From Sphingobacterium psychroaquaticum (GTDB lineage Bacteria > Bacteroidota > Bacteroidia > Sphingobacteriales > Sphingobacteriaceae), in NCBI RefSeq assembly GCF_900177625.1, contig NZ_FXAU01000003.1, forward strand, positions 124,001 to 188,000: a stretch of DNA of 64,000 bases, given 5' to 3'. The notes beneath the pieces are model-generated. The model did no database searches and was not told the origin of the DNA. It saw only the letters and a list, made by a program, of their open reading frames with translations. Both the position numbers and the translations under genes were made by a program. Shown piece after piece: positions 55,350 through 59,662 of the stretch. The stretch's first letter is position 1, and each line of letters starts with the position of its first letter.

Positions 55350-57590
55350 ATGAAGTGTTTGCTTCATCTGCCTCTCTGTTTTTTTTTCGCGCTTCATTTT
55401 ACAGGATACGTTGCAGCCCAAGAGCGAAATAAGGTTTATCCATCGGCTTATGCAATCAGTTCTACGGGACTTTTGGGCTCCGTAACAACACCGGAAAATA
55501 CTGTTGGTGCAGAAGCAAGTCAGGGAAGTACGGCTACAATGACTCCTGGCACCTTAGGATCAGCGACATTAGTGCTTAAGTTTCTGCAATTATCTGCTCC
55601 GCTACCTGTATCTGTTCCGTTATATGTTAAGCTTAACACGGGGGTGACCACGGCAAGTATGACTTTTACGGTACTTTCCGGAACGACTACGCAAAATTCG
55701 ACCAGTGAAGGGACCAATCTTACAACAAGCGTAACGACTTTACCTAGTAATGGTCCTGTTAAACTTACTGCAACGACGACCGGAGGTGTTAGTACATACA
55801 ATGGCGTGCGACTGTATACCACTGCTACAAAAGAAGTAATCACCTCTTTCTTCTACGCACAAGATGTTCCATTGACCTTTAAAGCGGCAAGCATCACAGC
55901 TTGTGGTTCCTATAATTTATTGGATAATCTAACACATAAATTCACGAACGAGTTAAGTTATGAGGTTTTTAATGATGTAGGCGTGAAGCAGGTCGGAACT
56001 TCGATCGCACAAACGGGTCGGTACAAGATTGTTGCAAAGGATAACGCCGTACCTACGGCAGCAGCGATCGAATCTCCTTTTATTAATGTTACGATTAATA
56101 GTCTTCCTGTTCCTTCGAGTTTTACTTCCTATTACCACCTTCCGATCAATCAAGCACAAAGTTTTCCGTCGATTACTTGTTCGGGGGGCTGTACCACGGT
56201 GTGGCGCAACAGCGCGGGGGCGACGGTTACGAGTATATCGGCACAGACGGTGCCTGGTATATATACATACACAGCAACGATTAGTAATAGTACGTGTTCC
56301 GTGGAACGCTCTGTGGTGGTGGAGGTGTATGATCCGCTCAATGAATGTGCCCGGACCAAAAGAACGTATGCGACCGTTTCTGTAGATCAGTCAGGTACAA
56401 CAAATCCCGGTAATGCATCAGATGCAGACCCGTTAACCAGCTCGTTGATATCGGCGCCCATTTCTTTGCTAGGGCTAGGCTCACATCAGACTGTTGGTTG
56501 GACGAAGAAAATCCCTATAGGAACCAAGGTGTATGTGAAGCTCGGTATAGGTAGTAACCTGCTAGGGTTGATCAGTAGTTTAACCGTACGTGCAAAAAAT
56601 GCAACAAGTTATGTCGGTGCGACCATGTCAGTGAGTGGTGAGTTAATCGGTCTGGCGGTAGGTGAAAATGATATGATCTATAGTTTCACGACCACTGCAG
56701 AGATGGATGCCGTGGAAGTAAAGGTCGCTGGGGTGCTTTCTTTGGGGTTATCCGCAAATCTATATGGAGTTTGGGTTGAAGAAGCGACGACCAGCTTATC
56801 AGACTGCCCTCCAAACGATGAAATTGACGTATTAAAAGGGTCGGAGGAATTGTTGAAAGGTGTGCTTAATGCAGCGACAGCGACCGTTGGTGTGGATAAT
56901 CCTTCCTGGGCGATTGATGGAAGTTTGACAACAAAGGCGACTATGCGTGCTGCGGTGGGGGTTGCCGCACAAGCAAAGCTGGATATTATCTTCCACACGA
57001 TGAGCCAACCGGGCGATTCTATTTTTATCAAGGTACAAGATTTAGGTGTTTTAACGCTTTTGGATGGTTTTTCGATCCAGCGATACCTCAAAGGGGCTCC
57101 TGTGGGGGCGCCAATTTATATGGGAGGTAGTGTGCTATCCTTACTTAAAGTTGGAACCAATAGCCAGATTATTTTTACGACCACCACGGAACCTTACGAT
57201 CAGATTTCCATTAGACTAGGTGGGGTGCTGAATGTGCTGAGTACGTTGGAAATATATGATATTGAACGGAGACCTTTTATTAAAACGGTAGCAAATGTCG
57301 ATAAACGTGTGTATGTGTGTGAGGGAGATCCTGTTGCTGTAGGTGTGGTAAGTCCATGCTTAGTGTACGATTGGTATGACAGCTTATCGGCAACGACGCC
57401 ACTTTTTTCTGCGGGTGGCGTACGGGATGGAAGTAATCCCTATCACCCAACCGGCACATTGGGTCAGCGAATATTCTACATCCAACAAAAGGTAAACGGT
57501 TGTGTGGTCGGTTCTCGTGTTCCGATAAAGGTTTATCTGATGCCGAAGGCGGGTAAGCCACATTTAAGTATTAGCAATGTAGTAAACTGA
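55350..57590 (+). CDS. Large secreted repeat protein with G-K-P-H C-terminal tail
   Basis: 746 aa from ATG 55350, which gives a good signal peptide (CLLHLPLCFFFALHFTG, ending near VAAQ); the longer frame from 55245 has a basic, aromatic leader instead. The mature protein shows three diverged copies of an about 150-residue beta-rich unit (about 25-195, 345-480 and 500-665), each with YVKLNTG/YVKLGIG/FIKVQDLG-like strands and ending in a VxVxGVLxL-type strand. An Ig-like segment lies between copies 1 and 2. The last residues are PKAGKPHLSISNVVN. No sorting domain is visible. It is the first gene of a three-gene operon ending in a T9SS protein; a surface structural or adhesive role is inferred. 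Confidence 0.85.
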   Translation: MKCLLHLPLCFFFALHFTGYVAAQERNKVYPSAYAISSTGLLGSVTTPENTVGAEASQGSTATMTPGTLGSATLVLKFLQLSAPLPVSVPLYVKLNTGVTTASMTFTVLSGTTTQNSTSEGTNLTTSVTTLPSNGPVKLTATTTGGVSTYNGVRLYTTATKEVITSFFYAQDVPLTFKAASITACGSYNLLDNLTHKFTNELSYEVFNDVGVKQVGTSIAQTGRYKIVAKDNAVPTAAAIESPFINVTINSLPVPSSFTSYYHLPINQAQSFPSITCSGGCTTVWRNSAGATVTSISAQTVPGIYTYTATISNSTCSVERSVVVEVYDPLNECARTKRTYATVSVDQSGTTNPGNASDADPLTSSLISAPISLLGLGSHQTVGWTKKIPIGTKVYVKLGIGSNLLGLISSLTVRAKNATSYVGATMSVSGELIGLAVGENDMIYSFTTTAEMDAVEVKVAGVLSLGLSANLYGVWVEEATTSLSDCPPNDEIDVLKGSEELLKGVLNAATATVGVDNPSWAIDGSLTTKATMRAAVGVAAQAKLDIIFHTMSQPGDSIFIKVQDLGVLTLLDGFSIQRYLKGAPVGAPIYMGGSVLSLLKVGTNSQIIFTTTTEPYDQISIRLGGVLNVLSTLEIYDIERRPFIKTVANVDKRVYVCEGDPVAVGVVSPCLVYDWYDSLSATTPLFSAGGVRDGSNPYHPTGTLGQRIFYIQQKVNGCVVGSRVPIKVYLMPKAGKPHLSISNVVN

Positions 57591-57625
57591 TAAGTAACAA
57601 TATTTTTAACCAAAAACTGATTTAT

Positions 57626-58684
57626 ATGAAATTAATTCTTAGAACAGCACGAGTAGGATTAGGCCTTATGCTCCTATTTAGTACGTTGACCACGTTGGGC
57701 CAAACGGGCACAGCGCAAATTTCCAAACCACCTGTAAGCGTAGGGCCTTTTACAGCCGTGGATAATGCTGGACGAACAACAGCTTTGGGTTCGAATTTGG
57801 TACCTGCCTATGAGAACACCAATACAATCTTGTTTTTCAATCCAAATGCACCAGGATCAGGGCTTACGTTGGTTGCTTCAACGAAAGAAGATCACCCGAC
57901 GCGTATCGGTGCCGATGCGCTTGCATTTACTTCGTATAAATGGTTCTATATGGGGCAAAACCCTGCGTCACCGACAGCAACCGCTTTGGGTAGCATTCCT
58001 GCTTTGGGGTTAGATCAACCGTCCAATAAGTTGCAAGTTCAGGGGTTGACAGAAGGATACCATGTTTTTAAAGTACAAGGTTTTATTTTGCCTGCGGGTG
58101 CCGATGCGAGCGCAATCTGTCCGCCAGATAAAGAAGAAACTTATGTGGTATATGTATTGCCTCGCTTGAAAGTTGATATTACACGTGAAGCCGGCGGTAC
58201 GACCCCATTGCAGTATTGTGAAACGGAGGCCGCTACGCAAACCAAGGTGCAGATGCGTGTTGCAACCTCTTTTGAGACTCCGGGAGTTCTTCCTGCGGTC
58301 GCAAGTTTCGAGTTGAAGTATACGTGGTATGCTGTAAAAGCCGATGCTGCTGGTAATTTTCCAACGATCGATGCAACGAAAGTTAATTTGACTGGAGCCA
58401 CCAAAGTGAAGGAAGTTGTTGTTCCGGCTTCTGCGACAGACCCAAATATCTTTGCGCCAACAATCGCTGATATCGGTAAATACAAGTTCTTTGTGGAGGT
58501 CGAGCATACATTAAAATCAAGAACTTACGACGGTGCAGATGCCGATGCGGTAACGAATCGTAAACGTGCATATACGTTATACAGAGGGTGGTATGCCGGA
58601 ACAGATCAAGCAAGTTCACCTGTTATTATTGTAACACCTGCACCAGGTAAACCACACATTACTATTGAAGCTATTCAGGATTAA
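57626..58684 (+). CDS. Secreted protein with G-K-P-H C-terminal tail
   Basis: 352 aa with signal peptide ending near TLGQ. The mature chain is beta-rich, with two Ig-like parts (about 60-180 and 185-330; YKWFYMGQNPASP, YTWYAVKADAAG). It ends PAPGKPHITIEAIQD, closely resembling the end of the preceding gene product. Only 35 bp separates it from that gene and 18 bp from the next, so the three are an operon. No known family was recognised. Confidence 0.85.
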   Translation: MKLILRTARVGLGLMLLFSTLTTLGQTGTAQISKPPVSVGPFTAVDNAGRTTALGSNLVPAYENTNTILFFNPNAPGSGLTLVASTKEDHPTRIGADALAFTSYKWFYMGQNPASPTATALGSIPALGLDQPSNKLQVQGLTEGYHVFKVQGFILPAGADASAICPPDKEETYVVYVLPRLKVDITREAGGTTPLQYCETEAATQTKVQMRVATSFETPGVLPAVASFELKYTWYAVKADAAGNFPTIDATKVNLTGATKVKEVVVPASATDPNIFAPTIADIGKYKFFVEVEHTLKSRTYDGADADAVTNRKRAYTLYRGWYAGTDQASSPVIIVTPAPGKPHITIEAIQD

Positions 58685-58702
58685 TCTGAAGCATAAATAA
58701 AG

Positions 58703-59662
58703 ATGACACCTACACTGCCTATAAGAGTATATATAACTTTTCTCCTTGGAGCCCTACTTGTCTTTGGACAAGTAAGGGCCCAGGTGGGGCAGGTATTGCA
58801 GGTCGTAAAGGGAAAGAAAGTCACCCTGCGCGCCGATGCGGATCATGCATTATCTTATGTTTGGTTTAAAGATGATGTCCCTCTTTCCGGTACCCACGAG
58901 CAGCGTATTATTGTTACCGATCCGGGCGTATATACCGTTATGGCATTGGGCGATGATTGTATTTCTGACCTTTCCGATCCTGTTCGTATTGTGTTAGATG
59001 ATCGTGGGACTGATGTAGAGGTTGATCTGGAGATTAGGAATTTGCCGGATAAACGAACTATTGGTGTTGGTAATACGGTGGCGGTACAGTTGATAATTTT
59101 TAATAAGGGCGTGGAAACAGCCGAGGATGTTGTCGCAACGTTCACGATTCCACCTGAACTGTCTTACAGTCGTATTATTGGGAGCTACCCTGGGGAGGTG
59201 AATTATGTAGAGTCAGAACGAAAATTATATTGGCGTCAGCCCAGTTTGGAGGGTAAATCATCAGCTATGTTATGGCTTGAAGTGGTGGGAGCGGCCAATG
59301 GATCTGCTGTTACCTTAGCCGCGGTATCGGCTAAGCAACGAGATCGTATGCAAGGAAATAATACCGATGATGCACGTATAGATATCGTGCAGTTGATTAT
59401 TCCTAATGTATTTACGCCGAATGGGGATGGTCTGAATGATTATTTCCGTATAGTTGGTTTGTCTTTGTTTCCTGGTAGGCGCCTCACAATTTATAATCGG
59501 TGGGGTAATAATGTGTATCGCAGTGAGCAATACGAAAACGATTGGGGAGGTTCGGGATTGTTGGAGGGAACCTATTTCTATGTTCTGGAGTTGACGGATG
59601 AAACAGGGCGATCGTCTACTTACAAAGGTGCTGTGCTCATTATTCGTGACCGGATACAGTAG
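58703..59662 (+). CDS. Surface protein with T9SS type-B (CHU_C) sorting domain
   Basis: 319 aa. Signal peptide ending near VRAQ, an Ig-like domain (about 32-110; VTLRADADHALSYVWFKDD), a DUF11-like domain (about 110-230; IRNLPDKRTIGVGNTVAVQLIIFNKG), then the CHU_C/gliding-motility C-terminal domain (about 233-319) with the hallmark NVFTPNGDGLNDYF, YNRWGN and GTYFYVLEL. CHU_C domains direct secretion by the type IX system and attachment to the cell surface. It ends the operon and probably supplies the surface anchor. It is convergent with the regulator gene; a short AAAACATGTTTT palindrome lies between them. Confidence 0.93.
   Translation: MTPTLPIRVYITFLLGALLVFGQVRAQVGQVLQVVKGKKVTLRADADHALSYVWFKDDVPLSGTHEQRIIVTDPGVYTVMALGDDCISDLSDPVRIVLDDRGTDVEVDLEIRNLPDKRTIGVGNTVAVQLIIFNKGVETAEDVVATFTIPPELSYSRIIGSYPGEVNYVESERKLYWRQPSLEGKSSAMLWLEVVGAANGSAVTLAAVSAKQRDRMQGNNTDDARIDIVQLIIPNVFTPNGDGLNDYFRIVGLSLFPGRRLTIYNRWGNNVYRSEQYENDWGGSGLLEGTYFYVLELTDETGRSSTYKGAVLIIRDRIQ

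Follow-up and report, generated by a model that had tools for sequence, protein, structure and literature searches.

A conserved C-terminal tail in a three-gene T9SS-linked cassette of Sphingobacteriaceae as a putative docking strand of a split Ig-like chain

The P1-P2-P3 cassette and its T9SS context

The window, a 64,000-nucleotide stretch of Sphingobacterium psychroaquaticum DNA (NCBI RefSeq GCF_900177625.1, contig NZ_FXAU01000003.1, positions 124,001 to 188,000), contains three neighbouring genes, here called P1, P2 and P3 (Table 1). As the first-pass annotation had noticed, the first two products share a C-terminal G-K-P-H tail, and the third lacks this tail and ends in a CHU_C sorting domain, which we matched with both CHU_C and TIGR04131 (87.7 bits against a cut-off of 27 and 48.8 against 35). 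Both tailed chains stop 8 residues past the His, and not 10 as first counted, the latter being the distance from the preceding Pro. Comparison of P1 and P2 with Pfam and NCBIfam returned no family match at E<=1; neither protein therefore has a known T9SS C-terminal domain, of type A or of type B, that would class it as a T9SS substrate. Judged by its C-terminal domain, P3 is a type B T9SS substrate. The body of P1 is related to stretches within giant proteins of 3000-4800 aa, and a recurring domain without a Pfam match (AIDGDPxTYSTL ... SLLGL ... FDRVxIxLGG), which may be a binding module, is common to P1 bodies (window positions 55350-57590 and loci L018-L037) and these giants.

Table 1. Genes and features of the cassette (positions in the window)
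Feature	Position	Strand	Description
P1	55350..57590	+	Secreted, 746 aa; Sec signal; without T9SS C-terminal domain
P1 tail PKAGKPHLSISNVVN	57543..57587	+	C-terminus of P1; linker plus orphan strand-A-like segment
P2	57626..58684	+	Secreted, 352 aa; two Ig-like domains; without T9SS C-terminal domain
P2 tail PAPGKPHITIEAIQD	58637..58681	+	C-terminus of P2; most conserved window in the P2 family
P3	58703..59662	+	319 aa; Sec signal, N-terminal Ig-like domain, DUF11, CHU_C type B T9SS signal
P3 N-terminal Ig-like domain	58781..59002	+	Starts at strand A' (residues 30-35), without strand A; proposed acceptor
P3 DUF11 domain	59024..59377	+	Domain match
P3 CHU_C / TIGR04131 type B T9SS C-terminal domain	59396..59638	+	Domain match

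Type B substrates of F. johnsoniae need PorP/SprF shuttles, which are usually encoded directly downstream (PMC12618676), and PorP-like proteins bind type B substrates at the surface (PMC9143113). P3 shares its CHU_C/TIGR04131 domain with the substrates of such pairs (SprB/SprF, Fjoh_3952/Fjoh_3951, PG1035/PorP), and in many related cassettes outside the window's genus a PorP/SprF gene likewise follows P3 within a few bases. The present arrangement differs from these systems in that two secreted proteins with strand-like tails and without a T9SS C-terminal domain precede the substrate, and in that the window has no PorP/SprF gene next to P3, such adjacency being common rather than universal. 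P3 is thus an orphan in its genome, which carries seven PorP/SprF genes, one of them (G000:C12:292852-293748) on a contig without a CHU_C match. This last gene is comparable to the shared shuttle Fjoh_1677 and may be an orphan shuttle serving type B substrates that, like P3, are themselves orphans.

A search with P2 found relatives in 14 of the 93 genomes of the window's genus, and when 399 genomes of the window's family were searched with a profile, 37 matches were obtained at E<=1e-3, spread over 7 of the 25 genera; at least one of these, at L103, is a chance hit. In this family we identified 38 P1-P2-P3 cassettes in 37 genomes (32 complete and parsed, and six, L058, L105, L113, L116, L125 and L126, read by eye), with one P1 and some flanks cut off by contig ends. 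P1, P2 and P3 are neighbouring, co-directional and in the same order in all 38, and because the genomic neighbours vary, the cassette itself is a unit. P1 ranges from 280 to 1318 aa across the cassettes, many of its bodies having no detectable homology to one another. A class-wide sample of 395 genomes contained no stand-alone P2 outside the window's family, the weak matches with good coverage sitting in long multi-Ig or similar open frames, and no P2 relative was found in the named genomes that were searched. One genome carries two full cassettes near each other (L119:6182-15100), and those at L050:7671-13802 and L056 adjoin a large CHU_C protein, a PorP/SprF protein and an OmpA/PD40 protein, a set that resembles PorP-PorE anchoring groups (the Pfam check covers L050).

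Sequence and conservation of the tail

The tail is present at the end of every readable P1 and P2 in the 38 cassettes, and absence from homologues, which the first-pass annotation had named as grounds for discarding its significance, was not encountered. In approximately 314,000 residues of open frames, giant multi-Ig proteins included, GKPH is found at 19 distinct C-termini and at no internal position, and the looser pattern G[KR]P[HTSVQ][ILVM][TS][ILV] at 30 C-termini and likewise nowhere inside a chain; the exclusively terminal position of GKPH indicates that the tail is not due to chance. A looser regular expression, composed after the sequences had been seen, fits 61 of the 64 P1 and P2 C-termini from the cassettes versus 14 of 232 other frames, six of which proved to be genuine P1 or P2 proteins from cassettes that the parser had missed.

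The original emphasis on G-K-P-H was too narrow. It is the local form in the window's closest relatives, and more distant cassettes have lost the His and the Gly-Lys; across the family the tail reads P-x-P-x-x-[PA]-x-[ILV]-x-[ILV], with the chain ending 5-17 residues past the last Pro/Ala. Family-wide, the end of P1 frequently carries His and that of P2 Thr, and outside the genus the residue following the anchor Pro is His in 8 of 16 P1 tails and in none of 16 P2 tails.

In an alignment of 27 P2 members, the eight best-conserved 10-residue windows all lie within the tail, the highest (VTPKPGKPTI) reaching 79% versus a mean of 40%. For 31 P1 pairs of the genus group without body homology (E<1e-3), identity of the tail 10-mer is 63% versus 7% for random 10-mers. 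The tail thus persists in P1 where relatedness of the bodies is no longer recognisable and, on this comparative evidence, is under selection. The lengths of the P1 and P2 tails correlate (Spearman 0.90, kinship between cassettes ignored), as expected if both tails fit similar grooves.

The proposed co-occurrence of the tail with CHU_C neighbours holds within the P1-P2-P3 cassettes and not beside other CHU_C genes, where none of six readable upstream genes (two genomes) encodes a tail. The tail therefore marks this cassette and not CHU_C neighbours generally, and these same genes gave no instance of the tail occurring widely without such a setting, another outcome that would have spoken against its significance.

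The P2 tail ends in Phe (IITF, VISF, TSTF, QANF, PVTF, AVTF) in several cassettes outside the genus (L111, L112, L115, L118, L119, L126). Many tails end in Asn or Asp, and a SpyTag-like isopeptide linkage was considered and rejected, as this residue is not conserved family-wide.

Equivalence of the tail to a linker and strand A

A junction profile was built from 418 Ig domains with covalent junctions. The P1 and P2 tails cover the part of covalent tandem Ig proteins that runs from the last strand of one domain across the linker into strand A of its successor, and then stop, mostly at profile positions 22-26, within strand A; 23 of the 64 tails score no higher than the 99th percentile reached by shuffled versions. 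In P3 the first Ig domain starts mostly at profile positions 23-28, while 93% of the 366 Ig domains at internal positions begin no later than position 20, a comparison to be read with the caveat that any protein must start somewhere on the profile after its signal peptide and that the control comprises three clear ordinary N-terminal Ig domains. Similarly, Pfam Ig_7 matches two P3 proteins only from position 10 or 11 of 84 and a covalent domain from position 2. At the equivalent of the P1 end, several giant proteins continue with a proline linker and a strand that lead into a further Ig domain (e.g., VNETPAAPVVADQTVCET).

AlphaFold models of P2 and P3 as single chains agree with this assignment. 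The P3 model opens with strand A' (residues 30-35) and shows no earlier strand, so that the N-terminal Ig-like domain is without one strand. The P2 model shows at its internal junction a strand (171-177), the residues LP and a further strand (181-187), and at its C-terminus a last strand at 334-337 with no strand beyond 337, leaving the conserved tail free and unpaired in the monomer; this model is of modest confidence (mean pLDDT 65) and cannot be relied on over its first ~75 residues. Foldseek searches with both models returned generic Ig-like matches only. Together, profile, Ig_7 and model evidence identify the tail as an orphan strand A. It is not the ordinary final strand of an Ig domain, as had been allowed for at the outset, since it lies beyond the final strand, at the place of the following domain's strand A.

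The position of P2 as an acceptor is less clear. In many cassettes outside the genus the mature P2 starts directly at strand A' (e.g., QTYQVYACKGTAVTL), and in the window's genus P2 has ~45 extra N-terminal residues, which may provide a strand of their own. Matches of the P2 N-termini to the Ig profile are weak, and their starting positions scatter between 15 and 47. On account of this extra N-terminus and these weak, scattered matches, docking of P1 to P2 is less certain than docking of P2 to P3.

Proposed assembly, alternatives and implications

The tail is real, conserved and cassette-specific, and a docking strand is its best-supported reading, of which we infer the physical step. Among the roles first suggested for it, this one has gained good indirect support from the conservation of the tail, its equivalence to a linker plus strand A and the lack of strand A in P3; a processing site and a new sorting signal have gained no such support. 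We propose, with a degree of confidence slightly better than even, that P1, P2 and P3 form a split, strand-complemented Ig chain held by P3 through the T9SS and PorP/SprF. The three genes would encode a single surface structure made as pieces, in which both P1 and P2 finish with a linker and an unpaired β-strand equivalent to strand A of the next Ig domain, and P3, less clearly P2, opens with an Ig-like domain without strand A. By strand complementation, the P1 tail would complete the first domain of P2, and the P2 tail that of P3; the head-to-tail chain so formed would mimic the covalent giant adhesins of the same bacteria. With P1 as donor only, P2 as donor and possible acceptor, and P3 as acceptor only and bearer of the export signal, the product may be a chain or a short fibre. 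Since the T9SS signal lies on P3 alone, P3 would carry or capture P2 and P1 at the surface, probably with a PorP/SprF partner holding P3. What the analysis establishes is the cassette, the conservation of the tail, its match to a linker followed by strand A, the lack of that strand in P3 and the restriction of the T9SS signal to P3; from these we infer docking, its order and the co-export of the three proteins. The broader notion of a T9SS-anchored strand-complemented assembly as a class, in which proteins without a C-terminal domain exit by docking a C-terminal strand into a type B substrate, forming either a chain of three fixed parts or a fibre whose shaft is P2, is put forward tentatively, at somewhat less than even likelihood.

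Among the systems closest to the cassette are the giant multi-Ig CHU_C adhesins of the same genomes, single chains that contain P1 regions, Ig_7, DUF11 and CHU_C in this same order; in the cassette the chain is split into three proteins after strand A. In chaperone-usher pili, a donated strand completes the Ig-like fold of the neighbouring subunit; there an N-terminal extension replaces strand G, while the donor strand of the cassette is C-terminal and stands for strand A, and genes for a chaperone or an usher are absent from the cassette. For the type V pili (FimA/Mfa1) of Bacteroidia, too, strand donation from one secreted subunit to another has been proposed (PMC4789730). The cassette differs from these in that the signal peptides of P1 and P2 look like ordinary Sec signals and in its link to the T9SS type B pathway, and neither P1 and P2 nor their relatives matched the fimbrillin families in Pfam, which gives no indication of a type V pilin fold. 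A search of openly licensed papers on the T9SS with donor strands, piggybacking or missing C-terminal domains, and split Ig domains (a weak form of evidence) gave no description of this arrangement.

Several other arrangements were weighed. The P1 and P2 tails could each dock on P3, at separate sites or in alternative complexes, an unlikely hub for which the close likeness of the two tails in the window's genus can be cited, as can the absence of strand A being clear in P3 and less so in the P2 of the genus; most P3 proteins, however, have a single Ig-like domain, many P2 proteins of the family likewise begin at strand A', and the different residue after the anchor Pro in P1 and P2 tails outside the genus suggests different sites. 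That same difference argues for a fixed order and against a polymerising fibre with P1 as tip, P2 as shaft and P3 as anchor, which we consider slightly less likely still, even though the set of donor-only, donor-and-acceptor and acceptor-only proteins is what a strand-complemented fibre needs and CfaB pilin-fusion chains are among the Foldseek matches of P2, weak as these are (probability 0.6 or less).

The remaining readings dispense with docking. A minimal export signal read by the T9SS or PorP/SprF would account for proteins that have a Sec signal, a conserved C-terminus and a T9SS-linked neighbour but no known T9SS C-terminal domain; it is improbable, given that the tail bears no likeness to CHU_C, that known type B signals span ~100 residues or more (PMC12618676), and that the tail corresponds to an Ig linker and strand A. 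The existence of covalent giants with the same domains in the same order would fit a vestige of gene fission, or an ordinary linker without function, but the tail is the best-conserved part of P2, outlasts recognisable homology of the P1 body and has a sequence specific to C-termini, with no internal occurrence, all of which makes this explanation very improbable. Least credible is cleavage by a protease at or near the tail: a short conserved C-terminal motif on exported proteins is compatible with it, yet no cleavage-like residue is constant across the family, the length from Pro to chain end varies from 5 to 17, and the hydrophobic residues alternate as in a strand. A split, strand-complemented chain remains the best explanation, and the evidence is accommodated less well by a new sorting signal, by a vestige or by an ordinary final strand.

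Because recognition of T9SS substrates relies on a C-terminal domain of the substrate itself, export predictions miss surface proteins that do not have this domain. Should P1 and P2 indeed travel with P3, predictions of the surface proteome in these bacteria would leave proteins out, and the 10-residue tail would be a searchable marker of such cargo. The tail could also act as a small docking tag. The proposal, if true, would mean a carrier-cargo route for the T9SS together with a non-covalent construction of giant Ig adhesins, in which a giant multi-Ig adhesin could be built from exchangeable parts, the P1 bodies varying widely and the tail being retained.
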